In this document: piece by piece, positions 3,601-57,000 of the stretch
Layout: the number at the start of each line of letters is the position of its first letter
Position numbering within the stretch: position 1 is the first letter of the stretch
Origin: Pseudeuparius sepicola
Lineage: Eukaryota > Arthropoda > Insecta > Coleoptera > Anthribidae
Assembly (NCBI GenBank): GCA_963920635.1
Contig: OY987301.1
Location: 19,014,501 to 19,078,500, forward strand
DNA: 64,000 nt
Direction: 5' to 3'
The notes under the pieces: model-generated
What the model saw: the letters and a program-made list of their open reading frames with translations, nothing else
Database searches by the model: none
What the model was told of the DNA's origin: nothing
Made by a program: the position numbers and the translations under genes

Positions 3601-3633
3601 GATAAGAATGAACAGCATGGGGATATTGCAAAC

Positions 3634-5040: not shown

Positions 5041-5154
5041 AAATTCTCTCCAGACCGACTTCCCAACACCGCATTCGCCACATAGTGTCCTCGCAACGCG
5101 TACTGTGAGAAGGATCATTTGGAAAACGCCTGACGGCGATTTGGCGCAAGGTAT

Positions 5155-9951: not shown

Positions 9952-9954
<3 letters not shown>
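8400..9954. other. No gene recognised
   Basis: Only short unsupported frames. Nothing with a domain, splice structure or clear repeat boundary. Confidence 0.5.

Positions 9955-10018
<64 letters not shown>
9955..10018. repeat. (AT)n microsatellite
   Basis: Thirty-two uninterrupted AT dinucleotides. The Ile/Tyr-rich frame that crosses it is an artefact. Confidence 0.97.
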
Positions 10019-27797: not shown

Positions 27798-28021
27798 ATA
27801 GGTAGCTACTTCTTCATAATTGGAAATTTAAAATTAGAATTGCTGTATTATCTAGAGTTCCCCTATCCAGGAACCCTAGTATTATCAAGGATTCCTATAC
27901 TTAAAGACAGAATTGGCACTTAGGATGCAACAAAAATTTAATGTATTTAAGTTTCTGAGCATAATAATTAAGATGCGTTGTTTTGTAGAATTGAGGCGAA
28001 TATGGCAAGCTACTCGTACTA

Positions 28022-36157: not shown

Positions 36158-36930
36158 ATTATTCTATTAATTTTTCAGAATGGAATTTCCTGGGGTTCGA
36201 CCAATTAAATTTTGTTTTAACACATTAAAATTTTTTATTTATTAAAAACATGACACTACACGTGTTTCAGCATTTTTGCCATCATCAGGTATCTAGGATA
36301 GTTTTTTTTTCCAAAATTTAAAATTCACCTTAAATAATAATAAGTATATCTGAAAGAGGAGATGTTCTTTGTTATTTTTATGGGAATACAAGATTTTTTT
36401 TTTAATATTTATGTTTAGAACATTATAGATTTTGAAAAAATAATAGTTATTATTACTTACATTACTAACTTATTATTTTTAAGAGTCCCTCCTCCTTTTG
36501 TTCTTTCCTTCTTGTAATAATTTTCTTATTCAACTAGTCTTTTTTCCATAGTTTCATTGTATGTGTTCAAAATTCTTTCTTTTTTTAATTTTTTTAAATT
36601 ATATAATAGTACTGGTGTGTGGGGAAAGCATTTGTGGAAAAATATGTGAATATGCTTTCAAAAGGATTGCCGGAGACGAAGTAAATTATTTTTATATTTA
36701 GACACGAATTGAAAGGCTCGGTGAGGTTTGTGGATACAAAAAATGTTATAAAAAGAAGGAGAGGAAGAAAGACTCTTTTACAGTGTGGCTTTGGAAAATG
36801 CAAGAAAATAAATATTTTTGAAATTTTGTTTTGTTATTGTTGGTAAAAACACATTTGGTTTTCTATTATTTCTATTATTATTTTTTTAATTTATAACTAT
36901 TATAAAGGAAGTTTATTTTTGGACTTATTT

Positions 36931-38171
36931 TTAAGTTATAAGATTATAATAAATATGAGAAAGATTTTCAGTGTCTGTTCTATAATTGATGCTATTTTTA
37001 TGTTTTTTTTATGTAAATCATTTCTAAGACATTCCTTTTAGTGTGATTATTTTCTTTAGTTAAAATTTTTGTATTGTTAAAATCAAAGTGATGGAAATTA
37101 TCTAAAGAGTGTTTAGTTAATGCTGTGGAGTTGTTGTTGTTAGTTCTTACGTCATATTTATGTTTGTATAAACGTTTATGGAGATATTGTTTAGTTTGAC
37201 CGATATAAACTGAAGGACAATTATTACATGATATTTTATAAATTAAATTTGATTGATAATTATTTGTAACGTTGGGTTTTAATTTGGAAAAGAATTTTTT
37301 GGTATAGTGATTTGGTTTATGTCCTATATTAATATTATATTGTTTAAAAAATTTTTTGATCTGTTCAGAAGCGCCTTGGATGTATGGCATTGAAAAATAT
37401 TTGGATTGATTGTTATTATTAATTTTAGGATGATTATAAATTTGGTGTATACGTTTCTTAATAAGAGGTTCGTAAAATTGTTTTGGATAATTATTCTTTG
37501 AGAGTACATTTTTAATTTTTTTAAGGTTGTTTGGTCTATATTTTGGATGTGATAGAGAAATGGCTTGGTCAGTCAAACTATTAACAACGCTTTTTTTGTA
37601 AGTTGTGGGAACAGAGGAATTAAAATTAAGATATCTTTCGGACCAAATTTCTTTTGTAAACCAATTTGTTGTTATATAACCGTTTTTATCATAGGTTAGA
37701 GAGAGATTTAAAAAATTAATATTTTTATTTTGTTCTAATTCGTAAGTGAATTGTAAGCGTGGATGGAAATTGTTAAAAACATTTAGGGTATTGTTTATTT
37801 CGTTTTTATGTATACATAAGATGCAATCGTCTACGTATCTTCTGTAAAAAAATGGTTTTGTGTTTAATTTTTGAATAGTAATAGTTTCGAGTTCTTCCAT
37901 TACTAAGTTGGCAATAGTTGAAGATATAGGAGAACCCATAGCAGTTCCAAAAGTTTGGAGGTAGAAATTATTTTCAAAATTAAAAAAAGTTGATGTTAAA
38001 CATAGTTTAGTGCATTCTATAAATTGTGATTTGGGGATTGAGGTGAAAGGTTCAATTTTATTACAGTGTTTAGTGATGCAATCTAAAGCTAAATCAATGG
38101 GTATATTAGTGAAAAGTGATATTACATCGAAGGAAACTAAAATGTGGTCTTTAGGGATAATTTGGTTTTTT
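36931..38171 (-). pseudogene. Penelope-like reverse transcriptase / GIY-YIG protein, left copy
   Basis: Reading leftwards from about 38171, the frame starts inside the RT domain: VSFDVISLFTNIP is RT motif A with its catalytic Asp. MGSPISSTIANLVMEE and RRYVDD follow, the latter holding the second catalytic Asp pair. A linker leads to the GIY-YIG endonuclease (YKISCNNCPSVYIGQTKQYL ... KRLYKHK) near 37150-37260. The frame is intact for over 1.1 kb. An extra A in a homopolymer near 37005 then shifts the last residues, whose normal end (RTDTENLSHIYYN) is still readable down to a TAA at 36931. The N-terminal half of the usual protein (RT fingers and upstream region) is absent, the normal outcome of incomplete reverse transcription. 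Confidence 0.85.
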
Positions 38172-38216
38172 ATAATTTATAATTAATATAATTTATAATT
38201 TATTTTGTTCTAATTC

Positions 38217-39034
38217 ACTTACGAATTAGAACAAAATAAAAATATTAATTTTTTAAATCTCTCTCTAACCTATGATAAAAACGGTTATATAACAACAAAT
38301 TGGTTTACAAAAGAAATTTGGTCCGAAAGATATCTTAATTTTAATTCCTCTGTTCCCACAACTTACAAAAAAAGCGCTGTTAATAGTTTGACTGACCAAG
38401 CCATTTCTCTATCACATCCAAAACATAGAACAAACAACCTTAAAAAAATTAAAAATGTACTCTCAAAGAATAATTATCCAAAACAATTTTACGAACCTCT
38501 TATTAAGAAACGTATACACCAAATTTATAATCATCCTAAAATTAATAATAACAATCAATCCAAATATTTTTCAATGCCATACATCCAAGGCGCTTCTGAA
38601 CAGATCAAAAAAAAATTTTTAAACAATATAATATTAATATAGGACATAAACCAAATCACTATACCAAAAAATTCTTTTCCAAATTAAAACCCAACGTTAC
38701 AAATAATTATCAATCAAATTTAATTTATAAAATATCATGTAATAATTGTCCTTCAGTTTATATCGGTCAAACTAAACAATATCTCCATAAACGTTTATAC
38801 AAACATAAATATGACGTAAGAACTAACAACAACAACTCCACAGCATTAACTAAACACTCTTTAGATAATTTCCACCACTTTGATTTTAACAATACAAAAA
38901 TTTTAACTAAAGAAAATAATCACACTAAAAGGAATGTCTTAGAAATGATTTACATAAAAAAACATAAAAATAGCATCAATTATAGAACAGACACTGAAAA
39001 TCTTTCTCATATTTATTATAATCTTATAACTTAA
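38217..39034 (+). pseudogene. Penelope-like protein, right copy (linker and GIY-YIG only)
   Basis: The copy begins just after the RT active-site region (ELEQNKNINFLN), so it is more deeply truncated than its partner. It runs in frame to about 38610. There a lengthened A-run shifts it; the shifted reading terminates at 38642. The correct frame resumes at once and encodes the whole endonuclease (VYIGQTKQYLHKRLYKHK) and the C-terminus, with a TAA at 39032-39034. Compared with the left copy there are only a few substitutions, so both copies derive from nearly the same source. Confidence 0.82.
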
Positions 39035-39844
39035 AAATAAGTCCAAAAATAAACTTCCTTTATAATAGTTATAAATTAAAAAAATAATAATAGAAATAAT
39101 AGAAAACCAAATGTGTTTTTACCAACAATAACAAAACAAAATTTCAAAAATATTTATTTTCTTGCATTTTCCAAAGCCACACTGTAAAAGAGTCTTTCTT
39201 CCTCTCCTTCTTTTTATAACATTTTTTGTATCCACAAACCGCACCGAGCCTTTCAATTCGTGTCTAAATATAAAAATAATTTACTTCGTCTCCGGCAATC
39301 CTTTTGAAAGCATATTCACATATTTTTCCACAAATGCTTTCCCCACACACCAGTACTATTATATAATTTAAAAAAATTAAAAAAAGAAAGAATTTTGAAC
39401 ACATACAATGAAACTATGGAAAAAAGACTAGTTGAATAAGAAAATTATTACAAGAAGGAAAGAACAAAAGGAGGAGGGACTCTTAAAAATAATAAGTTAG
39501 TAATGTAAGTAATAATAACTATTATTTTTTCAAAATCTATAATGTTCTAAACATAAATATTAAAAAAAAAATCTTGTATTCCCATAAAAATAACAAAGAA
39601 CATCTCCTCTTTCAGATATACTTATTATTATTTAAGGTGAATTTTAAATTTTGGAAAAAAAACTATCCTAGATACCTGATGATGGCAAAAATGCTGAAAC
39701 ACGTGTAGTGTCATGTTTTTAATAAATAAAAAATTTTAATGTGTTAAAACAAAATTTAATTGGTCGAACCCCAGGAAATTCTATTCAGAAAAATTAATAA
39801 AAACGACCAGGAAGAAAAGTTTTGTTAAAAAAATTATTCTATTA

Positions 39845-41540: not shown

Positions 41541-42000
41541 TATACAGGGTGTAACTGAACTGATGGTCAAAAATGAAACCACGTATTCTTGGAGTCAAAA
41601 TAAGGGCACTTATTCATATATTTTTTCTCCCACGGGCCCTACTTTTTTTATACAGAGCATAGAAAATTTAGATAAAAAAAATACACACATTCCTTAGTAT
41701 CTCTAGAAGTATACGAGATATTTTCTTCAAACTTGGCGTGTCACATGAGCGGATGAGCCGTCAAACTTAAGTTTGACGTGAAGCTTCAGAGGCCCCCAGT
41801 TGCGGAGATACAGGGTGTTATTAAAATTAATTAGTTCAAAAAATATTATTACCCTGTATAATCGCATTTTTTTCAATTTGTTTTGAGTGGTGAATCCAAT
41901 GGTTAACAAAACGTATCTCTTAGTATTTTTTCATATTCGCAGCCGTTTCTTAATTATTTTCAAAGGACGGCATTGCTGCAATAAACAAGTTATTATCTAG
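41541..42000. repeat. Left arm of an old hairpin element split by the 14-kb element
   Basis: TACAGGGTGTAACTGAACTG at 41543 and the following 450 bases correspond, with clear divergence, to the reverse complement of 56580-57000. Shared blocks include TCACATGAGCGGATG, TTGCGGAGATACAGG and ATATGAAAAAATACTAAGAG (the last read from the complement). The arms once formed one hairpin. Confidence 0.7.
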
Positions 42001-42235
42001 CAATCTGTGGATGTCAATTAAACTTTATTTAACAAAATACGAAAGCAAAAACTATAATAGAAGAAACGTAATGCTATTAGAAAATTAGGTTATAAATTAT
42101 TAAATGTTCTAAATGACCGCCGTCTTTTTCAATACAGGTCTATATGCATTTCCGCATTTTTATTATTGCCACTGGCAAGTGCATAGCAAAAGTGCATGTC
42201 AGTCAAGTCTTCGAATGAAAATAAGTAGTAATACA

Positions 42236-42430
42236 AAGAGAGTACGGGCTCACTTTGACCTCAGTTGACCCCTTGATCCTGAGAGTCCCCTACGGCCCGA
42301 GGTCACGGGAGCAAAGTGGCTACGTCATGGTCACGTGACGTCACCGGATGACCCCAGTTGACCCCTAGATCCTGATAGGTTAACCTTTGACCTTTGGGCC
42401 ACGTGTGACCCCCAGTTGACCCCCCCCCCC
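42236..42430. promoter_or_regulatory. Cluster of TGACC half-sites in the terminus of the element
   Basis: Within 200 bases TTGACC/TGACCY words occur about ten times (for example TTTGACCTCAGTTGACCCC and CCCAGTTGACCCC, repeated). There is also a GGTCACGTGACGTCACC palindromic block. Blocks starting CAGTTGACCCCT and continuing GATCCTGA are repeated about 100 bases apart. The mirror copy lies at about 56265-56460. It could bind nuclear-receptor-type or bZIP factors, or the element's own replication or integration protein. No binding is shown. Confidence 0.5.
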
Positions 42431-42478
42431 ACTCCAACGACGGGGCAACCCCCACTCCAACGGCTTGGTGGGGTGAGG

Positions 42479-42520
42479 TCTATATATTCGTGCGCAAGAG
42501 CAGTTTTCCCGTTATATACA
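42479..42520 (+). promoter_or_regulatory. Candidate TATA box for the TIR gene cassette
   Basis: TCTATATATT at 42479 lies about 80 bases upstream of the ATG at 42558, a usual distance for a short leader; a second TATATA word is at about 42515. The mirror promoter sits at about 56170-56210. Confidence 0.45.
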
Positions 42521-42557
42521 CTTACAATTTCCCACAGTCTGATTTGCCGAGTTCAAA

Positions 42558-42866
42558 ATGCAGTCGTTCCTGAATCACCTGAACAAGAATTTGATCGTCA
42601 AGAAATTCGAAAGCGTTCAAAATATGGACGTGGATGAAAATTTTCAAATCACGAGCGTGGACAAAGTGAACACGCAATACGGAGAGAAGGTCTACGTAGA
42701 GTTCGAAGAATTTAAGACGGTGCTGCCGCAACGATACACGGCCGAGTTTACGCCCCAACGGATCGAAGAAATTAATAGGGATATCGGTAACGGAAGGAGG
42801 TATTACATGAAGAGTCTTGGACCCGTCGGCCGATCTACAAATATCGAATTTATTGTAGAACCATGA
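42558..42866 (+). CDS. 102-aa TIR-encoded protein, possible OB-fold ssDNA-binding protein (left copy)
   Basis: The ATG is preceded by CAAA, a typical insect start context, and follows a TATA element. The frame runs 102 codons with no lesion. It begins MQSFLNHLNKNLIVKKFESV, and a beta-rich middle (KVYVEFEEFKTVLPQRY) is followed by a short helix-like stretch and SLGPVGRSTNIEF near the end. The alternation of hydrophobic and charged residues and the compact size fit a small OB-fold. I recall similar short frames accompanying mobile DNA in insect genomes, but this is fold-level inference, not a motif match. The right-arm copy differs by one residue (Thr to Ala at about position 33), so the two are either young or kept alike by gene conversion. 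The stop overlaps the next start. Confidence 0.6.
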   Translation: MQSFLNHLNKNLIVKKFESVQNMDVDENFQITSVDKVNTQYGEKVYVEFEEFKTVLPQRYTAEFTPQRIEEINRDIGNGRRYYMKSLGPVGRSTNIEFIVEP

Positions 42867-42985
42867 CGAAGCTGGAGTACAGAAGAAAACTGCAACAATA
42901 TTTGAAGAATTTAGAAGCATTGAAATATGAACTTATGTTATATGAAATTAAAATGAAGATAAAACATATTGACTTACACAATTAA
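42863..42985 (+). CDS. 40-aa coiled-coil-like peptide overlapping the upstream gene by ATGA (left copy)
   Basis: The ATG at 42863 shares ATGA with the stop of the 102-aa frame and runs 40 codons to TAA at 42985. The peptide (MTKLEYRRKLQQYLKNLEAL, then a second Leu/Met/Ile-spaced half) has heptad-like spacing of hydrophobic residues and many Lys/Glu. AATAAA at 42991-42996 and a TG/T-rich downstream stretch follow at once, so both frames would sit on one short mRNA. In an animal cell such an ATGA overlap implies termination-reinitiation or a -1 shift, as in compact viruses. It is too short to be sure by itself; the overlap, the polyadenylation signal and the identical right copy support it. Confidence 0.5.
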   Translation: MTKLEYRRKLQQYLKNLEALKYELMLYEIKMKIKHIDLHN

Positions 42986-42990
42986 TTTTT

Positions 42991-42996
42991 AATAAA
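42991..42996 (+). terminator. Polyadenylation signal AATAAA
   Basis: It lies five bases after the second stop of the cassette, with a GTTGTGTTTTTTT-type downstream element at about 43012. The mirror copy is TTTATT at 55693-55698. Confidence 0.6.
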
Positions 42997-43878
42997 CGTT
43001 TAAAAATCTTTTGTTGTGTTTTTTTATAAGAATCTTTGTGTTGAAGGGAAAACACCTGAAGCATCATATTATAATAAAACTCTCACTCTAAGCAATAATA
43101 TCACTCTATTCCACTGTTATGTGTATACAGGGTGATTCTTAACTTATACACATAAATTTGGGAAATTGTAGGTTATGTCAAGTAATGTCTAATAATGAAA
43201 AAAAAAGACTAATAAAATTGTTATCGATAAGGTCTGCGTTTGTGATCTTATGAACCATAATTTTTAATTTATTTGTGCAAATAAACCCCGAATTGTTCAA
43301 GTACACAAAAATATAACTCAGCTGTTGCGTCGCATCGGGTTACTCGCTGCGAACGCGTGACCGCATAGTAAATATATAGTAAGAGAAAACACGTGGAATA
43401 GTTCACGACAGACGCCTGCTTTGTTTGGTCGAGCACTCAGCGATTTTGCTGAAACCGCATATAGAACAATAGGCTACAAATTTCACCCAATTATCTTCTA
43501 AATAAAAAAATCTGAAAAAATTGCAGATAGAATAATAAACGGAAAATTTGGGAAAATCAGCATGTAACGCAAACGATTTAGGCCGGAATCTTCAACTAGA
43601 CACGTGGAAATCCGAGGTAGACTCCTTGGTATCAGGAAATGTGATACATTATGGTAAATAAGAAACCACGTGGAACCGTATATGATGCGATGTACAACGT
43701 AAACAATTAGTACGTCAGGGGCTCGGATTTTCTGCTGATGCAGGTGTATCGTGATTTCCAAATATATCTTCTGATCGGCTGATCGGAAAAAATCCTCATA
43801 TAGCGCAATCGATTTTGGGGCCACCCCTTGGGGGGGGGTGGACTTAGTCTACCCCGGGGTGGGTGGGGGGTGGCGGAT

Positions 43879-43942
43879 GGGCAACTATGTGCCAGGAGGA
43901 ACGGAGGCCGAAGGCCTCCGTCCGACTGGCATGTAGTTGCCC
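43879..43942. repeat. 64-base GC-rich hairpin in the left TIR
   Basis: GGGCAACTATGTGCCAG faces CTGGCATGTAGTTGCCC with two mismatches, and inside this a perfect nine-pair stem (ACGGAGGCC/GGCCTCCGT) closes on GAA. It sits in a strongly G-rich/C-rich stretch (43818-43990) unlike the rest of the element. Nested stem-within-stem shapes are used as replication origins or packaging signals by small DNA viruses; here the role is unknown. Confidence 0.7.
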
Positions 43943-45039
43943 GAACAAAATCCACCCTTCCCCCTTGCACGCGTTTCGCGCATGCGCAGTTCCGCACTTT
44001 TGATACCTATGAAAAATCGAAAAAATTTGAAAATTTTTTATTCAAAAAATGTAATTTTAAAAAGGTCCTGATCCTATAATCCCGATAACATTTTGGGAAA
44101 TTTTCATTTTTTGACGGTGAAATGTACAAGACAAGACTCAGACGAATGTTTTATATACAAGTGCAGATAGAATTTTTTCGAGTGACTGATAAAAACAGTT
44201 ATTATAATAGTTAGTCGGAAGGCCCCAGATAACATAGGAAATTTTGTTTGAACAAAATCTGTAAAAAAAATCCAAGACGTGAAAATGTAGGTAGAATTTT
44301 CGAATAAGTTTTGTATACCGGTAAAAATATATGTAAAGGTAAAAATAACGTCAGTTTCACTTGGAAAAAAATGATGAAAAAATTTCAGTAAAAAAAATAC
44401 GATGTAGAGGTTGTACCAAAAAAAATTGGAAATAATTATTTATTCCAGTAAAATATACACAAGACCGAAAAAGGTAATTGCGCGGCTGTCCCATTTTATA
44501 CACCCTAGCTGTTTCAGTTCATCTCGTTTGGAAAAATTTTAGGGGTTATTACTTTTTTAAATACCGGTTTCCTCAACCTTATTTGAAAGTAAATATTTTT
44601 TAGTTCCCCACAGAAGGAAATAATGACGATATTTTATACCGGTGGATTCAAAAAATATATAAGGTTAGGAAAAAACCTTGGTAGGCAAACGCGGCTCTGC
44701 TGACCAGACAAAAAAAAACCTTAGTCGACAAATAATGGCCTATAAGAAGGGTGCGTGATTCCACGTATCAGTTCGAGTGCTCCAAGATGCAAGTAAGTAT
44801 ATACCAGCTGTCCCATTTTTAAACAGCTAGATATTTGGAAACCTTTCGTAAAAAAATTCCCAAGGATTACATGAGCAAAAGAAAGAAAAAAATGTAAATA
44901 TACCAGCTGTCCCATTTATAAACCGCTTGATATCTTGGAAACGAAAACTTATATAAAGGAAGTAAAAGCTATATCTTAATAGGCGGAGGACCGACTGTCA
45001 TTCAGACAGGTGAAAATTTTTTGTGATTTTTTGTAGAAG

Positions 45040-45365
45040 TTTTTTGCCAAAATTTTTTTTTGTCAATTTTTTTTTCGTCAAAATTTTTTTTTGTCAAATT
45101 TTTTTTTGACAATTTTTTTTGCCAAAATTTTTGTTTGCCAAATTTTTTTTTGCCAAATTTTTTTTTTTGTCAAAAATTTTTTTGCCAAATTTTTTTTTTG
45201 TCAAAATTTTTTTTGTCAAAATTTTTTTTGTCAAAATTTTTTTTTGTAAAATTTTTTTTTTGTAAAATTTTTTTTGACATTTTTTTTGCCAAATTTTTTT
45301 TTTGGCGAATTTTTTTTTGCCAATTTTTTTTTTTGCCAAATTCTTTTTCGACAAAATTTTTTTTG
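45040..45365. repeat. T-tract low-complexity array (left TIR)
   Basis: Runs of seven to nine T separated by GYCAAA or GTAAAA words, with a period near 15. The Phe-rich frame on the plus strand and the Lys-rich frame on the minus strand are artefacts of this. The mirror block is at about 53350-53650. Confidence 0.9.
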
Positions 45366-45991
45366 ATACAAATATAATTGCTAACGTTTAATTTGTTTAC
45401 CCCATTTACGAAAATGATAACAAAATTGGATCAGACAAGATGTTTTTTCGAAGTATAGTTTTTAAACACAGGGTGCCACCACCGGTTTTACGACATAGGT
45501 TTCAAAATGCGACGCAAGTACATAAAAAAAATACCCTAGAGATAAGAAAACAAAATACAACTCACCGAAAGATTCTTGATGATGTATAAAAAGAAATCAG
45601 GTTACATCTAATGCCCCAGACAGTAAAATAAACATCCCCGAGCTATCAGATATAACCAAACATCATTTTTCTAACGGCACAGTCATTTTCACGGGAAAAA
45701 CAACCATGCCTCGCTACGTGGTGCGTCGCATACTCGCCGTCGCGTGGTGTATGGGCGCCAGCTTTTGGCCAATTTCAAGGGAATCGTTTTTCATATTTTC
45801 GACGGATTTTCGTCCTTTTTGCAGACGTTACACTGCTAAATTGATCCGTTTTGCTGGCAAAAAATATTTCTATCGCCATGACTGAGTCACGACGCTTGAC
45901 CTTATGCAATTCGCTGCTGGCGCAACTTCCAAACGCTTCCCCAAATATCTTAACATCTCAAATGGGTCAAGGTTTCGGCTAGTTTAAAATT

Positions 45992-46066
45992 TATAAAAGT
46001 GGTGGGGGTAACGTCTTAAAAAGTGTATGGAAAAATATAAAAGTGGTGGGGGTAATGTCTTAAAAG
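45992..46066 (+). promoter_or_regulatory. Duplicated TATA segment before the GNAT gene
   Basis: TATAAAAGTGGTGGGGGTAA occurs at 45992 and 46036, 44 bases apart, each followed by a GTCTTAAAA word. The second lies about 70 bases upstream of the ATG at 46106. The duplication gives two strong TATA boxes for the same gene. Confidence 0.6.
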
Positions 46067-46105
46067 TGTGTGACCGATGATTTTTCATTCAAACGTCTGT
46101 GCAAC

Positions 46106-46639
46106 ATGGAGATCAGATTCTTTTTTGATCGACAAGCAGTAAACAAAATAAGACAAGAAGTCGTGAGAGATGGTATTGCAAGAAGTATGTTCGATCAGTG
46201 GTGCCTAGATAAAAAAATATCGTGCTATATATTATACGTTGATGCTAAACCGGTTTCATTTGTCCTAATGTCAAAAATTGATTTCGACCCTTTAAACAAA
46301 CACTCCAACCCGAAAAATCTCAATTTTGTTTTTACCCATGAAGAATATCGTCGAAGAGGATATGCGTCAAGACTAGTGAATCATATTAAGAAAATTAATC
46401 AATTTACGTCTTTCTGTTCTAATACCAATTCAGAAAAACTTTTTGAAAACTGTTCATGTATTAATTACGGAGAAATAAATTATAACACCATGTATAGATC
46501 CCCTAATAAAATGTTTGTGTCAATTTTTCTTCTTTTTTTTTTTCACAAAGCACCTCAAAATCGGGTCCATTATTGCCGAAATCCTCCAACATTGATGATT
46601 CAGCAAGAAATTAGACTACACCCTGATGTACGCCTCTGA
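46106..46639 (+). CDS. GNAT-family N-acetyltransferase-like protein
   Basis: The frame is open from 46070, but the first ATG is at 46106, giving 177 residues. Residues about 80-105 hold FVFTHEEYRRRGYASRLVNH, a good match to GNAT motif A, where the R-R-x-G-Y-A loop binds the pyrophosphate of acetyl-CoA. The beta strands before it (CYILYVDAKPVSFVLMSKID) fit the preceding part of the fold. The tail beyond about residue 135 (from MFVSIFLLFFF) does not look like the family and may be read-through of an exon or a damaged end. It is the first gene of the unique centre, behind a duplicated TATA segment. Its substrate cannot be guessed. GNAT proteins are a common cargo of large DNA viruses and elements. 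Confidence 0.65.
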   Translation: MEIRFFFDRQAVNKIRQEVVRDGIARSMFDQWCLDKKISCYILYVDAKPVSFVLMSKIDFDPLNKHSNPKNLNFVFTHEEYRRRGYASRLVNHIKKINQFTSFCSNTNSEKLFENCSCINYGEINYNTMYRSPNKMFVSIFLLFFFHKAPQNRVHYCRNPPTLMIQQEIRLHPDVRL

Positions 46640-47359
46640 AATCCGGGTGTCATCAAACATCTGTGCTCCCACGATCCAGGTACGAGCGCGGCTGAGATAT
46701 TTTGCATCGGAACCCTAGACGCAGCGGCGCTCCGTGGCGCCCGGCGTTTTGCTGTGCAAGTCTCGATAAAAAATTTGGCCGACGAGCGTGGCCGAGAAAT
46801 TGAAGAACCACGTCGCATTTAACTGACAATCATCATGCGTTCGTTTCCTACTTCGAGGTAGAATACAGAACGCAATAAAAAAAAATCGAAAATGTTTCAC
46901 ACCTTCAACAAAAATTTTTAATCGCAAATTAGACGTACAGTTTCATATGGATATTAGTTATAAATAGGTTGAATTGTTCTTTTATATATATTTTTAAATT
47001 GTAACAAAACTATATGCATTCATTTTCCCACCACCTTTGAGGTAGAATGCAGGGCGCAGGAGGTCTAATCCATGTTTGATCAAACATATTAGAGAGATAC
47101 AAAGAATAGTGTAATTTAAAAATATGGGATATTACCTTATAAGCTTATATTATGAAAGTATGGTATCACAAACAACCGTTTCGAGCTGCAGGGAGAGTCG
47201 CAAACTTGATGATACAAAATTCATTTTTTCATACAAATCCTAAACAATATAGACTAGAAAAGATTAGAGTAAAAACTAGATAATGCAAGTTGGGGCCTTC
47301 CTTCTTTCGCCACTGGGGTTGAAACCCAATCTTGAGAGAAACAAAACCATATGAAGGGT

Positions 47360-47565
47360 ACACGGGAAAAACAGGCCAAGTCATTTTTTGTTGAAATTGG
47401 GATTACAGTGCCATCTTGTGGTAAATTGTGTGCTCTTTCAAACCAACGTAATAGTCAGGGGAAAAACAGGCTAGGTCACAATATACGTATTACTTTAAAA
47501 TACCCATACACGGGAAGAATAGGCTAAGTCAGCGCGGAACAGGGGAACAACAAGCTAAGTCATAA
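47360..47565. repeat. Four copies of a GGGRAxAAxAGGCTAAGTCA-like word
   Basis: Variants of GGGAAAAACAGGCYAAGTCA begin at about 47364, 47459, 47514 and 47543, all in the same orientation. They resemble the subterminal repeats of the DNA transposons in this window but have no visible partner end. They may mark a truncated insertion. Confidence 0.6.
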
Positions 47566-47899
47566 TAAAAATCGCATAAAATCTTCAGCTGTTTTGTTTA
47601 AGGTTAGCAGTTAATTATCGTGATCGTGTTTGCGCTGGCGTCTTTGTACAATCATTACATCACAATAAAATCATTCTTCTGAAAAGTGAAGTTTGCGATA
47701 ATTTGTCTAACAATAATCAAGACCAAAACGAGCTATTTTTCATTATATTTAAACAAAATTGCCAAATCCCACTGGTTTATAAACTTCACTATGAAATGTG
47801 CTATTTATTCACGATTAGTAACATATTGTGGCGTCGGGTAGAGGAATTGAGATTAAAATGGTGGAAGAAGATAACAGAAAGAAGTTGGGTTAACAAAAG

Positions 47900-48009
47900 C
47901 TGACTCCTATACAAAAGTATGCAATACCTATCATAATGACAAGTCAAGACTTGGTGGGGTGTATTCAAAACAGGCTCTGGAAAAACGGCGGCCTTTTTAC
48001 TACCCCATC
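47900..48009 (+). pseudogene. Vasa/DDX-type DEAD-box helicase fragment, frameshifted
   Basis: LTPIQKYAIPIIM, with the Q-motif Pro-Ile-Gln, is followed by TSQDLVGCIQ. After one extra base comes TGSGKTAAFLLP, which contains the Walker A motif GSGKT. Order and spacing match the start of the helicase core of Vasa/Belle-type DEAD-box RNA helicases. No DEAD box or later motif follows. The 66-codon frame just upstream (47703-47903) does not show helicase features. It is probably a captured host mRNA or gene fragment that has decayed. Confidence 0.65.
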
Positions 48010-49290
48010 ATCCACTAGATCGTTTCTGACCAAACACCGCTCTTAAAAACTGAGAAATATCTGAAACGTTGTTTTTCACAGATATATGTGATACAAACAC
48101 CGTACAATATATTGGAGAGGAAACAAAATTAATATTATAAAATGTACTATTTAGGCATTGGAAAAGAAACAGAACCAAGCCGTAGATAAATATTTAATTA
48201 TAGCAGCGTAGGTAATAGAAGATTTTAACGATGATTACCACAGTGACTTCCTTCCAAATTTCGATAAGTGGAACCGTTTATCAATGACTCCACCGTGACT
48301 TTCTACCCCTGCGATTTTCGCTACCTAAAGCAAGCACTCTAACAATTTTTCTAGAGAACACATAGCCTAAAAGTCTGCCTAATATCCTTACAGAGGTATC
48401 TTTTAATTAAAAATATTATACTATTTTAGAAGAGTGCCTTTTCTGTAGCTTACACGTTAAAATGTTGTTAATGAAACTTGTTCAAGATGAAGAATTAGGT
48501 AGGTGTAAAAAAAAATTTCAAAACCTTAGGCCCATTTTGACCCATTTTGACCTTCTAGCCGAGACGCCGCGATCAACCTCATTCGTACCCCAAAATGTAA
48601 ATTTTCAACATACACCCCAAAAGTTCAGCTTTTACCTTGGAAATATTTTTCGACTAAAAGAAAACACCGATACGAAATTTGAGTGCGCCCGGCCTTGGCG
48701 TTCTTGTCCTTTCTGGAATTGGTTTTGTGAGCGATGGGAGATACCTCTGTTGTTCGATTTTTAAGCGGAAAGTAGGTTGAACTTTTTTTTTGGGAGATAT
48801 GTTTTTGCGTCTACATTTTTAATTAACTGTGCAACGATATGATTGGACAACCCATGCGCGATTTGTTTCTTTAAACATTATCACATTCAATTTCGCAAAG
48901 ACTCTGCGATGTATTAACAATCTAATTCCCCCTAGTCCATCAGCCCAGTCCGGCCCTAAAGAACGTGTATAACGCCATACAGTCTAGCTAATTTTTTTTG
49001 GATTACATTGCATTATATCGTTCATCCCCGTGGCCTCTTGTTTACCACATATTAAATTTAATGACCACGCATAACGCCACACAGTCTCGCTCAGATCAAT
49101 AAACAAGTTTTTTAAAAATTCTAGAGTGGGCAAATCGTTTTTCTCCTACTATATTTTTTGACTGACATCGAATTTTTTCCCTTTAAAGAGGTTTGTTGAA
49201 TGGCCATTAGCCAGTTCACAGCCTCCTCTCTTATAAGTTTCTTGATTCACAATAGTAGTTCCAGTGGTGTGTTTTTTGTGTATTTTGGAT
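48010..49290. other. Intergenic DNA of the element; small hairpin-type repeat
   Basis: ACAGAGGTATCT near 48391 and AGATACCTCTGT near 48737 form short inverted ends around a segment related to 60310-60420. ATAACGCCAYACAGTCT is repeated at 48969 and 49071. A TATAAG word at about 49233 could serve the next gene. The 100-codon frame at 48462-48764 lies within the repeat and is not supported. Confidence 0.4.
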
Positions 49291-49297
49291 ACTTACA

Positions 49298-50040
49298 ATG
49301 CAGCACCCTAAGAAGTTGTCTCTCTCGACAAAGAAACCTACTATCCTTAGCAATATGCTAATAATGCCTGTAAGTATAAATCTTGGTTTTCTGGTAATCT
49401 TCAACAATTTTTTTCATACAAAATTATTTTTTAAACTTTATTTTTGAAAAATACTTTTTTTCTAAATTAAACTTATTATTTTTTTTCTTTTCAGCCAACC
49501 ATCGACTCTGCACAGTCATACAACATGCCCGATTTGAATAGTGCGTCCTTCGTGTCGCCCTCCCAAGTGCCTTGTTACGACGAGATAATGGCATTCTGTC
49601 CGAATTCCATTATTTCACCGGTTCATCGGCAAGAGGACGTCTAGCAGTGTGGTGTGGAAAACACGAATAACCCACAATTGAAAGGAAATGGTGGTAAAGA
49701 CATGCGTCAGTTGGGCATGGACAGCGAGGACTCCTTTAGTGACGTGCACATTAGTGTTAGTCAGCAGATGGACAGCGAGGATGAATTCGAGGAGCTGACT
49801 AGTCCTGGGAGTACTTCACTCGGTTCCTATATATTACAGGTCTCAAAAGGGCTGAAACAAAAGGACGCCGAAAATCTAAAATCCTTGAGAGAGGAGCAAC
49901 ATCGACTGGCGACTATTAGGAGAGAGAAAGAACGACTGAGAAAAAGGGAGCAGGTATCTATAGCCAAAATTGAGAAAATGGAGAGGGATAAACGGCTGTC
50001 TGCTGGTACTTTAAAAAGATTTAATGTGGTAAAAAAGTAG
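49298..50040 (+). CDS. Spliced gene for an acidic/coiled-coil protein, interrupted by an in-frame UAG
   Basis: Exon 1 (49298-49369) encodes 24 residues starting MQHPKKLSLSTKK. A 125-base intron (49370-49494) has GTAAGT and a pyrimidine tract ending TTTTCAG. Exon 2 continues in frame for 49 codons to TAG at 49642-49644, and the same frame then stays open for 131 more codons to TAG at 50038-50040. The distal part has a repeated acidic word (MDSEDSFSDV, MDSEDEFEEL) followed by a strongly charged helical stretch (about 49850-50010, LREEQHRLATIRREKERLRK) likely to form a coiled coil. I do not recognise the family. Either the UAG is a recent disabling mutation, or the gene makes a 73-aa protein plus a readthrough product. 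An AATAAA lies near 50184. Confidence 0.55.
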
Positions 50041-50829
50041 TTTTTTCTCACATTAAATATTTTTAAAAAAATTTTGAGTCTTTATTTTCCAACGTTGTTT
50101 ATAGATACCTATCCTTCTTTTAGTTTTAAATTTAATACGTATTCTTAGCTTTTAAGTATATTTTCTTTTATATTTTTATACACAATAAATATGTTTTATG
50201 TATATTTTTGGTTTTTTTCTATCCTCCCTTATAAGTGCAAAAACATGTTGAAACTAAAATGTAATAATAATATAATCCTAGAGACAAGTATTTCCTGATT
50301 TTGTTCTCCTGAGAAACATGTTACAAACTGAAAATATGTTAAAGTGCACCATAAAAAGATAAAGATAAAATGTGTAAGTATATATTTTTATTAAATAAAC
50401 CAAAATTCCATTTCTGAATTTCTTACAACAGTACCGATTAAAATAATAAGTCGCTGTTCGAGTCCTATACACAAAGAGTGAATTGCCCATTTTCTTTAAG
50501 ACTGTCTCGTTCTGTTGTGTTTGTATAAGTAGGTATTGTTCTCTCAACTTTTTTTCATTCATAAACAGCTCAACTTATATGAAATTTCCACTTTTTCTCT
50601 GCATCCAGCATATAATACAAATTTTCCTACCCACATTAACTTTCTAAAACTGCATAAAATTCAATGAGGTTATTCATGAAAACAGTCGATTCTTATTACG
50701 GCATTTTTATCCAGTCACCAGTCACAGTTCGATGTATGAATTTTATTTACAATTCATTGCATGAAGAAAGCATGCATATTATGTTACACCTTTTCCCGCG
50801 AATGTCTCTACCCACACACATTGTTTATC
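50041..50829. other. 3-prime flank of the spliced gene
   Basis: AT-rich, with the candidate polyadenylation signal near 50184. Otherwise nothing recognised. Confidence 0.45.
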
Positions 50830-51400
50830 GCATAAGGCCAAGCGTCGTGACTCAGTCATGGCGATAGAAATATTTTTTGCCAGCAAAACGGATCAATTTA
50901 GCAGTGTAACGTCTGCAAAAAGGACGAAAATCCGTCGAAAATATGAAAAACGATTCCCTTGAAATTGGCCAAAAGCTGGCGCCCATACACCACGCGACGG
51001 CGAGTATGCGACGCACCACGTAGCGAGGCATCTCCGGGCAAGTTGACGGCGGCGCGGCGGCCAGATTTCAACAAACGAAGTGGCGCGCAATGCGTCGAAA
51101 GGCCGAGATGCTTCCATCTCGAGCGGCGATTTGCATGTGACGAAACACCGGCGGCTCTCCCACGTGGGCGTATTGAAGGCATCTCCGTTGGAAATGCCTG
51201 ATTAGAATCGCAATAGGTACCTTTGTTTACTTTTTACCAGCAAAACGGGTCAATCGGTGTCATCGCTATGTTGTCTGCTATATTTTTTATTGTAAATTAG
51301 GCCATTTTTTTCTTGACCTGAATATTTCTCTGTTTTCGATACGTATTATAGGCTTACTATTCACGTAAGTAAAGTCAACAGTGCGTTTTGTATTTTAGTT

Positions 51401-51757
51401 ATTCATTTTTATCCGTCTAAAATATCAAGGAATACCCCCAAAAGCTAGCAAAATGGGCAAACAGTCGATAAAAATTCCGTTGAATAACTTATTACTACTA
51501 CCTATGGTGCCTTTTGTATTAATCAGAAGTGTATTATATGAGTGAAAGTATTGTTTTGGTGAAATTTTTATTTTTAATTTTTATTATTCATTTTTATCAG
51601 TCTAAAATATCAAGGAATACCCCCAAAAGCTAGCAAAATGGGCAAACAGTCGATAAAAATTCCGTTGAATATCTTATTATTACTACCTATGGTGCCTTTT
51701 TTATTAATCAGAAGTGTATCATATGAGTGAAAGTATTGTTTTGGTGAAATTTTTATT
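51401..51757. repeat. 185-bp tandem duplication
   Basis: ATTCATTTTTATC, then GTCTAAAATATCAAGGAATA, starts at 51401 and again at 51586. The two units are nearly identical, ending at GGTGAAATTTTTATT. Confidence 0.9.
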
Positions 51758-52249
51758 AAATCGGTTTAAAATGAGCGATTTCTATGTTTTGAGGTTGTAA
51801 CTCCTTGTAGGTAATATGCAAACATGATTCAAAAGGAATCCAACTGACCATTATTAAACTACAACTTTTTGTCTAAAAAATTTTTTAAAGAGTTTAGCTT
51901 CTAAGATTATAAGCTGTTACAATTAACTGTTGATAAACTAAACATATTTTAATCGCATTTACTAAACAATTTAAGCCAATATTTTTGGATCCTCTAACTT
52001 ACGACGCAATAATAAGGCTTCACATGATATCTAGAAAATTGCCACTCGCAATATTTTTGATTCTAGATAATCGAGAAAATTGTCATTATTAAACCTAATT
52101 ATTAAATTGAGTTGAAAGTCAACGCACAAAGATTTTTGTATGGTATTTACTCTCAGGGTCGTTGTCTCAGAATTCTATAAGAGATTCTTAAGATTTTTTT
52201 CCTATTATCTCAATTAGTAACTTATTGAAACTCAATTTATACAAAACCA

Positions 52250-52470
52250 ATTTTCAGAGGACAAAAATCCCTTGAAAATATGATTTTTTAAATTTTATAA
52301 CGTTCAGTATTTTTTATTTTGGTTATATAGTTACCACCTAGCTTGACCCAGAGAAACTGAATTTTACACAAGAACAATTTTCAGAGGATAAAAATCCGTA
52401 GAAAATATGATTTTTTAAATTTTATAACGTTCAGTATTTTTTATTTTGGTTATGTAGTAGCTTGACCCAG
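52250..52470. repeat. Two-unit repeat of about 115 bp
   Basis: TTTTCAGAGGAYAAAAATCC at 52252 and 52369, each followed by TATGATTTTTTAAATTTTAT and TAGCTTGACCCAGA. Confidence 0.8.
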
Positions 52471-53349
52471 ATGGAATTTTTCTTTTCATCACATTCTGTT
52501 CTAACGGGAAGCGTTTATGATGTTGTCTCGGTCTATTGAACAACTATTCTAAAATAACCCAACCTGTATAAAACATAAAATGGGACAGCCACATCACTAC
52601 TTTTTTTGCCTTGTATATTTCCAAACTGGCTGTTAGATGTGTTTCTCACCTTAAAAAATTAAAGCCAATATTTTTTTTGGACCCTCAAACTTGCAACACA
52701 ATTAGGTTTCACATCTCTGGCATATTTCTCATTTATTTTATATATACGTAGGTATAAGTTTCATTGTTTAATAAAACCAACTCGGCACTTTTCACGTCCT
52801 ATGCGTCGCACTTGCTTCAGTAGATTCTCGGTCGTGGCCACAAATAAAGACTCTATCGAGGCGTTGTAATAAATATATGAAAAGTCTGAGTTTCGTGTTT
52901 GTTTTTCTTTGGAAAGATGGAAGTGTATCAGTACCTACTTCAGTATAATAGATACGCGTAGTTCAGTGAAATTTTGGATTACGGCAGTACCTATCTATGG
53001 AATTTGAACGGTTACTGGTTGTTTTTCCCGTGAAAATGACTGTGCCGTTAGAAAAATGATGTTTGGTTATATCTGATAGCTCGGGGATGTTTATTTTACT
53101 GTCTGGGGCATTAGATGTAACCTGATTTCTTTTTATACATCATCAAGAATCTTTCGGTGAGTTGTATTTTGTTTTCTTATCTCTAGGGTATTTTTTTTAT
53201 GTACTTGCGTCGCATTTTGAAACCTATATCGTAAAACCGGTGGTGGCACCCTGTGTTTAAAAACTATACTTCGAAAAAACATCTTGTCTGATCCAATTTT
53301 GTTATCATTTTCGTAAATGGGGTAAACAAATTAAACGTTAGCAATTATA

Positions 53350-53650
53350 TTTCTATCAAAAAAAATTTTGTCGAAAAAGAAATTTTCAAAAAAAAAAATT
53401 GGCAAAAAAAAATTCGACAAAAAAAAAATTTGGCAAAAAAAATGTCAAAAAAAATTTTACAAAAAAAAATTTTGACAAAAAAAATTTTGACAAAAAATTT
53501 TGACAAAAAAAAAATTTGGCAAAAAAAATTTTGACAAAAAAAAAAATTTGGCAAACAAAAATTTTGGCAAAAAAAATTGTCAAAAAAAAATTTGACAAAA
53601 AAAAATTTTGACGAAAAAAAAATTGACAAAAAAAAATTTTGGCAAAAAAC
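53350..53650. repeat. A-tract low-complexity array (right TIR)
   Basis: Mirror of the T-tract block at 45040-45365, with a few length differences, as expected for slippage-prone DNA. Confidence 0.9.
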
Positions 53651-54746
53651 TTCTACAAAAAATCACAAAAAATTTTCACCTGTCTGAATGACAGTCGGTC
53701 CTCCGCCTATTAAGATATAGCTTTTACTTCCTTTATATAAGTTTTCGTTTCCAAGATATCAAGCGGTTTATAAATGGGACAGCTGGTATATTTACATTTT
53801 TTTCTTTCTTTTGCTCATGTAATCCTTGGGAATTTTTTTACGAAAGGTTTCCAAATATCTAGCTGTTTAAAAATGGGACAGCTGGTATATACTTACTTGC
53901 ATCTTGGAGCACTCGAACTGATACGTGGAATCACGCACCCTTCTTATAGGCCATTATTTGTCGACTAAGGTTTTTTTTTGTCTGGTCAGCAGAGCCGCGT
54001 TTGCCTACCAAGGTTTTTTCCTAACCTTATATATTTTTTGAATCCACCGGTATAAAATATCGTCATTATTTCCTTCTGTGGGGAACTAAAAAATATTTAC
54101 TTTCAAATAAGGTTGAGGAAACCGGTATTTAAAAAAGTAATAACCCCTAAAATTTTTCCAAACGAGATGAACTGAAACAGCTAGGGTGTATAAAATGGGA
54201 CAGCCGCGCAATTACCTTTTTCGGTCTTGTGTATATTTTACTGGAATAAATAATTATTTCCAATTTTTTTTGGTACAACCTCTACATCGTATTTTTTTTA
54301 CTGAAATTTTTTCATCATTTTTTTCCAAGTGAAACTGACGTTATTTTTACCTTTACATATATTTTTACCGGTATACAAAACTTATTCGAAAATTCTACCT
54401 ACATTTTCACGTCTTGGATTTTTTTTACAGATTTTGTTCAAACAAAATTTCCTATGTTATCTGGGGCCTTCCGACTAACTATTATAATAACTGTTTTTAT
54501 CAGTCACTCGAAAAAATTCTATCTGCACTTGTATATAAAACATTCGTCTGAGTCTTGTCTTGTACATTTCACCGTCAAAAAATGAAAATTTCCCAAAATG
54601 TTATCGGGATTATAGGATCAGGACCTTTTTAAAATTACATTTTTTGAATAAAAAATTTTCAAATTTTTTCGATTTTTCATAGGTATCAAAAGTGCGGAAC
54701 TGCGCATGCGCGAAACGCGTGCAAGGGGGAAGGGTGGATTTTGTTC

Positions 54747-54810
54747 GGGCAACTACATGCCAGTCGGACGGAGGCCTTCGGCCTCCGTTCCTCCTGGCAC
54801 ATAGTTGCCC
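54747..54810. repeat. 64-base GC-rich hairpin in the right TIR
   Basis: Exact mirror of 43879-43942, with no change in either stem. Confidence 0.7.
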
Positions 54811-55703
54811 ATCCGCCACCCCCCACCCACCCCGGGGTAGACTAAGTCCACCCCCCCCCAAGGGGTGGCCCCAAAATCGATTGCGCTATATGAGGATTTT
54901 TTCCGATCAGCCGATCAGAAGATATATTTGGAAATCACGATACACCTGCATCAGCAGAAAATCCGAGCCCCTGACGTACTAATTGTTTACGTTGTACATC
55001 GCATCATATACGGTTCCACGTGGTTTCTTATTTACCATAATGTATCACATTTCCTGATACCAAGGAGTCTACCTCGGATTTCCACGTGTCTAGTTGAAGA
55101 TTCCGGCCTAAATCGTTTGCGTTACATGCTGATTTTCCCAAATTTTCCGTTTATTATTCTATCTGCAATTTTTTCAGATTTTTTTATTTAGAAGATAATT
55201 GGGTGAAATTTGTAGCCTATTGTTCTATATGCGGTTTCAGCAAAATCGCTGAGTGCTCGACCAAACAAAGCAGGCGTCTGTCGTGAACTATTCCACGTGT
55301 TTTCTCTTACTATATATTTACTATGCGGTCACGCGTTCGCAGCGAGTAACCCGATGCGACGCAACAGCTGAGTTATATTTTTGTGTACTTGAACAATTCG
55401 GGGTTTATTTGCACAAATAAATTAAAAATTATGGTTCATAAGATCACAAACGCAGACCTTATCGATAACAATTTTATTAGACTTTTTTTTTCATTATTAG
55501 CCATTACTTGACATAACCTACAATTTTCCAAATTTATGTGTATAAGTTAAGAATCACCCTGTATACACATAACAGTGGAATAGAGTGATATTATTGCTTA
55601 GAGTGAGAGTTTTATTATAATATGATGCTTCAGGTGTTTTCCCTTCAACACAAAGATTCTTATAAAAAAACACAACAAAAGATTTTTAAACGTTTATTAA
55701 AAA

Positions 55704-55826
55704 TTAATTGTGTAAGTCAATATGTTTTATCTTCATTTTAATTTCATATAACATAAGTTCATATTTCAATGCTTCTAAATTCTTCAAATATTGTTGCAGT
55801 TTTCTTCTGTACTCCAGCTTCGTCAT
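55704..55826 (-). CDS. 40-aa coiled-coil-like peptide (right copy)
   Basis: Mirror of 42863-42985. Same ATGA overlap with the upstream stop, same length and the same AATAAA signal (complement at 55693-55698). Support and doubts are those given for the left copy. Confidence 0.5.
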   Translation of the reverse strand: MTKLEYRRKLQQYLKNLEALKYELMLYEIKMKIKHIDLHN

Positions 55827-56131
55827 GGTTCTACAATAAATTCGATATTTGTAGATCGGCCGACGGGTCCAAGACTCTTCATGTAATACCTCCTTCCGTT
55901 ACCGATATCCCTATTAATTTCTTCGATCCGTTGGGGCGTAAACTCGGCCGTGTATCGTTGCGGCAGCACCGTCTTAAATTCTTCGAACTCTACGTAGACC
56001 TTCTCTCCGTATTGCGTGTTCACTTTGTCCACGCTCGCGATTTGAAAATTTTCATCCACGTCCATATTTTGAACGCTTTCGAATTTCTTGACGATCAAAT
56101 TCTTGTTCAGGTGATTCAGGAACGACTGCAT
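55823..56131 (-). CDS. 102-aa TIR-encoded protein, possible OB-fold ssDNA-binding protein (right copy)
   Basis: Mirror of 42558-42866, 102 codons from an ATG at 56131 with the same start context and TATA element. One residue differs from the left copy (IASVDK instead of ITSVDK). Having two intact copies, one per arm and divergently placed towards the ends, means any recombination between the TIRs keeps the gene. Confidence 0.6.
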   Translation of the reverse strand: MQSFLNHLNKNLIVKKFESVQNMDVDENFQIASVDKVNTQYGEKVYVEFEEFKTVLPQRYTAEFTPQRIEEINRDIGNGRRYYMKSLGPVGRSTNIEFIVEP

Positions 56132-56579
56132 TTTGAACTCGGCAAATCAGACTGTGGGAAATTGTAAGTGTATATAACGGGAAAACTGCTCTTGCGCACG
56201 AATATATAGACCTCACCCCACCAAGCCGTTGGAGTGGGGGTTGCCCCGTCGTTGGAGTGGGGGGGGGGGTCAACTGGGGGTCACACGTGGCCCAAAGGTC
56301 AAAGGTTAACCTATCAGGATCTAGGGGTCAACTGGGGTCATCCGGTGACGTCACGTGACCTCGGGCATGACGTAGCCACTTTGCTCCCGTGACCTCGGGC
56401 CGTAGGGGACTCTCAGGATCAAGGGGTCAACTGAGGTCAAAGTGAGCCCGTACTCTCTTTGTATTACTACTAAAATATCATTTTTCAAAATATTGATAGA
56501 TACTAAAGTGCAAAGTTCACAGCCAAATGATTCAAATAATGCCAAGTTTAATTGCTACATTGCTATATTTATTATTAAA

Positions 56580-57000
56580 ATGACTGTTATTGCCGTTCTT
56601 TAAAAATAATTAGGAAACTGCTGAGAATATGAAAAAATACTAAGAGATATTTTTTGTTGACCATTGGATTTACCACACAAAACAAATTTAAAAATGCGAT
56701 TATACAGGGTATTCATATTTTTATGAACTAATTAATTTTAATAACATCCTGTATCTCCGCAACTGGGGGCCTCAGAAGCTTCATATTAACCTTTAGTTTA
56801 ACAGCACATCCGCTCATGTGACACGTCAAGTTTGAAGAAAATATTTCTTATACTTCTAAAGAAACTAAGAAATATGTGTATTTTTCTCTAAACTTCTACG
56901 CTCTGTATAAAAAAAAAACTAGGGCCTGTAGGAAACAAATATGTGACTCCAAGGATACGTGGTTTCATTTCAGACCATCAGTTCAGTTACACCTTGTATT
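56580..57000. repeat. Right arm of the old hairpin element split by the 14-kb element
   Basis: Diverged reverse complement of 41541-42000. It ends with GTTCAGTTACACCTTGTAT, the counterpart of the ACAGGGTGTAACTGAAC start. The arms differ much more than the giant TIRs, so the hairpin is older. Confidence 0.7.

Follow-up and report, generated by a model that had tools for sequence, protein, structure and literature searches.

Introduction

Mavericks, or Polintons, are regarded as virus-like elements, with particles not having been observed (PMC8097293, accessible part). According to that same part of the article, the commonest end motif of vertebrate Mavericks is (AGT)2//(ACT)2, ends of the form AGTAGT//ACTACT go with 6-bp duplications in the Mavericks described, and the terminal inverted repeats (TIRs) of vertebrate copies measure 46 to 1,447 bp (PMC8097293). 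Adintoviruses are described, in the available text of PMC11071296, as combining an rve integrase that has a C-terminal chromodomain, a hexon-type capsid and a PolB with an OTU-like N-terminal domain. Here we analyse an element at positions 42224-56471 of a 64,000-nucleotide window, the whole stretch of DNA studied, from the beetle Pseudeuparius sepicola (assembly GCA_963920635.1, contig OY987301.1, positions 19,014,501 to 19,078,500, forward strand). Very probably it belongs to a non-autonomous Maverick/Polinton lineage of adintovirus type that is present in many copies, has recently been active and would use Maverick PolB and integrase in trans. The lineage has exceptionally long, gene-bearing arms. 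New here are a TIR-borne cassette of two genes, OB and ORF2, common to a possible helper and its satellite, and the fact that the satellite lineage has its own cargo; phrase searches of the open-licence literature found no paper dealing with Polintons or Mavericks described as non-autonomous or truncated.

Ends and arms of the element

The element is 14,248 bp long and runs from AGTAGT to ACTACT: its left end is AGTAGTAATAC, starting at 42224, and its right end is GTATTACTACT, whose last base is 56471. An earlier note on this DNA, made from the letters alone, had described exact inverted termini flanked by AAAATA, and the coordinates, both ends and both flanks match that description when re-read. 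The features of the ends and arms are as follows.

42218..42223, no strand: left 6-bp target site duplication, AAAATA (flank read)
42224..42245, + strand: terminus with the (AGT)2 motif (PMC8097293, accessible part), 18 of 22 bases equal to the end of the resident Maverick (end comparison)
42224..45910, + strand: left TIR, without a 1,984-bp stretch of the right arm (arm alignment, copy mapping)
42262..42423, + strand: subterminal stretch in which CAGTTGACCCC occurs three times (GTTGACC at element positions 41, 134 and 192)
50827..56471, - strand: right TIR (arm alignment, copy mapping)
51032..53015, - strand: 1,984-bp part of the TIR, here in the right arm only (mapping of seven further copies)
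56472..56477, no strand: right 6-bp target site duplication, AAAATA (flank read)

Long TIRs are thus present, with arms of 3.7 and 5.6 kb that lie far above the published vertebrate Maverick range. Their outer parts (42224-45706 and 53016-56471) are 98.57% identical over 3,489 alignment columns with 11 mismatches, and their inner parts (45706-45910 and 50827-51031) are 99.0% identical over 205 columns. The TIRs of 3.7 and 5.6 kb given in the earlier note are, by way of correction, one and the same TIR.

Just outside both element ends, 41614-41972 and 56591-56946 form an inverted repeat of 86.5%; possibly an older inverted-repeat element received this insertion in its loop.

Copies in the genome and recent activity

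A search of the host assembly for further copies, as the earlier note had suggested, was productive. A 29-bp end pattern with up to three mismatches had 184 forward and 181 reverse matches in the genome, and the reversed pattern, run as a control, had none in either direction; a 500-bp arm query drew 782 candidates, of which 40 were scored as matches, at 98-100%. Among the first 100 of the 365 end matches, 86 form 43 convergent pairs with a median size of 15,094 bp (40 of them between 11.9 and 17.5 kb, the other three 8.4, 21.6 and 32.7 kb), and 14 ends are unpaired. The structure is thus neither a product of chance nor an artefact of a single locus.

Duplications were counted in 15 two-ended copies, all selected by end match and read on both flanks. 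A perfect 6-bp target site duplication borders 13 of them (AAAATA, TATAAC, TGCCTT, GAGGTT, TTCGTG, AAAGGG, GCTTGA, GACTTT, TAAGTA, ACCCAA, TAGGGG, AACATG and GAATTA), one has 5 bp (CGTGA) and one has none, which bears out the 6-bp duplication originally proposed. A copy at C2:68431544, an 8,423-bp pair read on its left flank only, stands outside this count. The copy without a duplication is also the one with the most divergent arms, as would be expected for a recombinant of two copies. The termini AGTAGT...ACTACT are found at both ends of 14 other two-ended copies, which is no independent test since the copies were chosen by their match to that end. At the C7 copy, the flanking open reading frame (ORF) reads through once the element and one 6-bp copy are removed; because six bases preserve the frame, it is also open with both 6-bp copies kept.

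Arm-to-arm substitutions over the terminal 2,550 bases amount to 0.13-0.45% in seven of eight copies and to 0.83% in the eighth. The OB gene, which lies close to each end (see below), has no internal stop in 30 of 31 matches across the loci read, three of the 31 being places counted twice. As judged from these sequences, the lineage is high-copy and recently active, the latter because the arms are near-identical in the copies measured and the OB frame has stayed open.

These copies also bear on the possibility that both arms were created by a collapsed or mirrored contig joint. Arms that are more than 98% identical are hard to assemble; however, the 15 two-ended copies have different flanks, 14 of them have matching short duplications and the arms carry distinct indels, all of which makes an assembly artefact extremely improbable.

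Kinship with a full Maverick in the same genome

A full Maverick resides at C1:27471979-27489809 (17,831 bp, with TATTAA on both sides, read in loci L047, L043 and L044). It has a double jelly-roll (DJR) capsid (PF21738, E 4.7e-75), an A32 ATPase (PF04665, 5e-10), a PolB (PF03175, 5e-28, the ORF having been scanned in part), an rve integrase (1.6e-13) with a chromodomain match just under the cut-off, a PLA2-like domain (2e-11), C48/C5 protease matches below cut-off and a BIR match (5e-21). The combination of rve integrase and C-terminal chromodomain, the match to the latter lying just under the cut-off, fits the adintovirus description in the available text of PMC11071296. A gene with BIR plus RING domains, of the inhibitor-of-apoptosis type, was observed on this Maverick at L043:2464-2886. 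Both ends start with AGTAGAGATACTAAGAGAGCACC, and the TIRs are identical over 439 + 155 bp, the right one being split by inserted microsatellite-rich DNA.

The connection between this Maverick and the element lies in the ends and in the OB-ORF2 cassette, which each arm of the element carries:

42558..42866, + strand: left copy of the OB gene, encoding a 102-residue predicted OB-fold protein, homologue of the resident Maverick TIR gene (ORF list, model, homology)
42863..42985, + strand: left ORF2, a 40-residue coiled-coil-like peptide conserved in the resident Maverick (frame comparison)
55704..55826, - strand: right copy of ORF2 (copy comparison)
55823..56131, - strand: right copy of the OB gene (ORF list, copy comparison)

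Each TIR of the resident Maverick holds an OB relative with 51-53% identity to that of the window (E 1.3e-29 on the left and 1.3e-28 on the right). The ATG of ORF2 overlaps the OB stop (ATGA) in each arm of the element, and in the Maverick the OB stop overlaps, again as ATGA, the ATG of a 33-residue ORF that resembles ORF2; the likeness of the two ORFs scores 56, a value reached by 0 of 10,000 shuffles. The first 22 end bases of element and Maverick are equal at 18 positions, compared to 15 for the best ungapped agreement on four locus strands that contain no end.

Other DDE transposons can produce 6-bp duplications, and a Maverick end has indeed received copies of the element (L015/L016 and L023), the L015/L016 copy adjoining a diverged OB relative (47% identity, E 5e-24) in a Maverick-end-like fragment. 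A cut-and-paste transposon of another superfamily might in this way have gained a Maverick TIR gene by nested insertion. Against this, OB occupies the same end-adjacent place in the two arms of the element and in the two TIRs of the full Maverick, whose end also agrees with that of the element at 18 of 22 bases; we consider such an origin very improbable.

What the element lacks and what it adds

When 16 ORFs (15 from the resident Maverick and one PolB from a C5 locus) were compared with the window element, only OB matched, in both arms; a self-recovery control returned 15 of the 16, the sixteenth having no locus in the control set. No match to the element was found for two resident PolB ORFs (one partial), for the resident rve integrase ORF, or for the resident DJR capsid, A32 ATPase, protease-like and PLA2-like ORFs, and at E 1e-3 there is no DNA similarity between the element and loci L043-L046. 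The OB proteins of the window and the resident Maverick differ by a dN of 0.33, with synonymous change too large to compute. The absence of DNA similarity, the saturation of synonymous change and an OB identity of 51-53% point to a long separation during which the cassette was conserved at the protein level. By these comparisons the element is best read as a non-autonomous Maverick derivative, with ends and terminal genes akin to those of a full Maverick and no match to the enzymes tested.

The earlier view of a gene-poor Polinton/Maverick relative is upheld by the 6-bp duplications, the (AGT)2//(ACT)2 ends and the link to a resident full Maverick. Its suggestion that polymerase and integrase would be needed from elsewhere is likewise supported, the resident PolB and integrase having no match in the element. 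A new kind of virus-derived element, the alternative that the earlier note had offered, is not needed. The "own small gene set" that it had proposed is so far element-specific as regards the GNAT and acidic proteins; the 102-residue protein and the coiled-coil ORF have relatives in the TIRs of the resident Maverick. The central genes are:

46106..46639, + strand: GNAT acetyltransferase-like ORF, from the first ATG (Pfam, copy comparison)
47894..48043, + strand: part of a broken DEAD-box (DED1/DDX3/vasa-like) helicase fragment (Pfam, solved-structure relatives)
49298..49369, + strand: predicted exon 1 of an acidic coiled-coil protein, 24 codons (frame and splice-site reading)
49495..50040, + strand: predicted exon 2 of the acidic coiled-coil protein, with an in-frame stop here (frame comparison of copies)

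The GNAT protein of the earlier note is confirmed by Pfam Acetyltransf_1 at E 3.7e-7, above the cut-off, and has no match among viral contigs. Its spliced acidic protein likewise retains the predicted form of a spliced gene, with two exons around a GT...AG intron; exon 2 has an in-frame stop in the window copy and is open in all five other copies that have it in one piece. Neither the GNAT nor the acidic protein matched the Maverick and C5 loci. The best solved relative of the DEAD-box fragment is DED1 (E 2.2e-5), its Pfam DEAD match (E 0.0026) is under the cut-off, and it is probably captured host DNA. Seven further copies hold the acidic gene in 7/7 cases, the DEAD-box fragment in 7/7 and GNAT in 5/7.

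Conserved frames to which no replication role is assigned, together with a copy number that is very high for an element without known enzymes, could suggest an independent virus-derived element with its own unrecognised replication or integration enzyme, for example GNAT, the acidic protein or one of the short ORFs. However, the longest listed ORF in the element has only 189 residues, Pfam found no DNA-transposition enzyme among the element ORFs and pieces scanned, and the OB-ORF2 cassette and end motif connect the element to Mavericks. This explanation thus appears improbable.

A more serious competitor is a recent internal deletion in an autonomous, same-ended Maverick family that is still, or was lately, in the genome, the apparent separate history of the element being an illusion of sampling. 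Internal deletion is the typical origin of non-autonomous elements, and a same-ended autonomous family could have been missed, since the pairing drew on the first 100 of the 365 ends and the PolB search scored 87 of 1,839 candidates. Moreover, several other PolB families, with open frames of 1,226-1,338 residues, exist beyond those whose ends were read. The earlier note had proposed to look for longer relatives that have the same terminal 200 bases and contain polymerase B or integrase, and no such polymerase-bearing relative was found among the pairs listed from those 100 ends: none of 86 PolB places lies inside the 43 pairs, and two PolB places, among the matches listed, are within 40 kb of an unpaired element end, on its outer side. 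In addition, the seven further copies carry the acidic gene and, in five cases, GNAT, none of Maverick type, and OB shares only some 50% of its residues with its counterpart in the single full Maverick that was read, so that the element is not a fresh deletion of that family. We regard a recent deletion derivative as possible, if somewhat doubtful, and continue to favour a non-autonomous lineage mobilised in trans.

Possible helpers are present in the form of open PolB frames in the same genome. A PolB_2 search gave 152 matches, and among the rows listed at least 20 are in open frames of 1,254 residues. A PolB element on C5 (L045/L046, G000:C5:31295471-31310982) has inverted arms of about 7.5 kb that are 99.96% identical, each with a PolB frame of 1,272 residues, and at least six such inverted PolB pairs occur among the matches listed. 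The C5 pair was rejected as a partner: no DNA match links it to the element, and the TIR that BLAST delimits begins with something other than AGT.

The OB protein

A single-sequence search with the 102-residue protein found no relatives, and comparison of OB with Pfam, PHROGs and PDB sequences gave no firm match, nor did viral contigs give any. An alignment of the two OB families used as query opened the family, yielding first two proteins and then 16 relatives on public contigs. These relatives (P0001-P0016), the longest contig of which has 187,563 bases, include some named precorrin isomerase by their source. That name was discarded: the best Pfam CbiC match among 18 members reaches only E 0.05. 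The best Pfam match of any kind among the 18 has E 0.011, and the resident Maverick copy has none at E 0.1. In a tree of ten OB proteins, the window protein clusters at 0.965 with P0005, which comes from a public contig of 1,000 bases, and the resident family stands apart.

An AlphaFold model built with ten sequences had a pLDDT of 85; the model built without an alignment (pLDDT 63) had no significant structural matches. With the former, Foldseek ranked the single-stranded DNA-binding protein (SSB) P12 of PRD1 first and second, at a non-significant E of 0.011, and other single-stranded DNA-binding proteins were also in the top ten. In VIA-align, HIN and SSB domains scored no higher a Z than toxin B subunits and eIF5A, all at an equal value, which we read as a common barrel only. 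The modelled structure suggests that the protein probably has an OB fold and binds single-stranded DNA. A small gene family without a firm Pfam match, at the tips of Mavericks, could be their single-stranded DNA-binding protein.

Asymmetry of the arms

The 1,984-bp stretch that the left, GNAT-side arm of the window element lacks was followed in the seven further two-ended copies, which were fetched in halves and mapped in a single orientation, five of the seven sitting opposite to the window element. Two copies (L017/L018 and L019/L020) have the stretch whole in both arms, three (L009/L010, L011/L012 and L013/L014) have it partially in the GNAT-side arm, one of these also partially in the other arm, and from two (L015/L016 and L021/L022) it is missing on the GNAT side, at a junction identical to that of the window element. 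Since the GNAT-side arm holds the stretch whole, in part or not at all, loss is the simpler reading: the TIR probably held the stretch and GNAT-side arms lost it to differing extents. In two of the seven (L010 and L014, the GNAT-side arm), part of the stretch was lost together with GNAT and the inner 205 bp. As L015/L016 and L021/L022 share the window's junction, the asymmetric form has multiplied as such. The idea of a nested insertion at 51032-53015 was dropped in favour of loss.

AT-rich repeats of short units lie in both arms (45030-45370 and 53350-53660) and vary in length between copies and between arms. The giant arms may simply be tolerated, or they may be a source of extra binding sites, such as the three CAGTTGACCCC repeats near the end.

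Surroundings

Elsewhere in the window, 36165-37752 and 38212-39799 form an inverted repeat of 99.2%. A 313-residue ORF inside it (36998-37939) gave nothing firm in Pfam and is presumably Penelope-like. Positions 26766-27798 are a tandem array whose units measure about 255 bp and are about 98-99% identical. At another locus, L025, two facing, near-identical long ORFs (3568-6555 and 7823-10000, of 996 and at least 726 residues) form a large inverted structure that we take to be MULE-like. Among the flanking ORFs, one is presumably an errantivirus env.

Proposed mechanism and comparison with known systems

In the model that we favour, the integrase of a resident Maverick would insert the element and produce the 6-bp duplications, and the protein-primed Maverick polymerase would copy the linear element from its repeated AGT ends. 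The OB protein, either the element's own or that of the helper, would coat the single strands exposed by strand-displacement replication, which would explain why OB lies next to each end and has been kept in both lineages. The GNAT and acidic coiled-coil proteins may be satellite cargo, perhaps acting on host chromatin. Mobilisation in trans, with every enzymatic step in it, and the SSB function are inferred.

More tentatively, the element may represent a long-lived satellite of animal Mavericks that has kept the ends and the TIR gene pair, acquired cargo of its own and reached about 180 copies on borrowed polymerase and integrase, and perhaps capsids, with OB as a new family of single-stranded DNA-binding proteins of protein-primed replication in animals; we consider this quite conceivable, if short of probable. 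A recent derivative of some 180 copies that has retained no more than its ends and a pair of genes points towards the smallest set of parts required for mobility, and the element would be a natural test substrate for an integrase and a protein-primed polymerase supplied in trans.

Very long, internally repetitive inverted arms are also a feature of Galileo/Foldback elements (PMC3573991, accessible part). However, the transposase of Galileo places it with the P element according to the available text of that article (PMC3573991), whereas our element has ends, duplications and genes of Maverick type. The OB protein resembles PRD1 P12 and the SSBs of the Bam35/phi29 group in being small, in its OB-like predicted fold and in belonging to genomes with protein priming (PMC8276246, accessible part). 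It differs in having no significant sequence match, the fold match standing at E 0.011, and protein priming of the element is itself presumed.

Among the closest known systems is the resident Maverick (Polinton/adintovirus), with which the element has in common AGTAG ends, a 6-bp duplication and a TIR-borne OB gene whose stop overlaps the start of ORF2 (ATGA). The two differ in arm length, about 0.6 kb in the resident copy compared to up to about 5.6 kb in the window element, and in gene content, as the element has none of the other Maverick ORFs tested but possesses GNAT and acidic coiled-coil genes. Transpovirons and virophages are satellites that borrow the machinery of a helper, and like them the element is gene-poor linear DNA that would depend on helper enzymes. 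In contrast to them, the possible helper and the satellite are here both found inserted in one animal genome.

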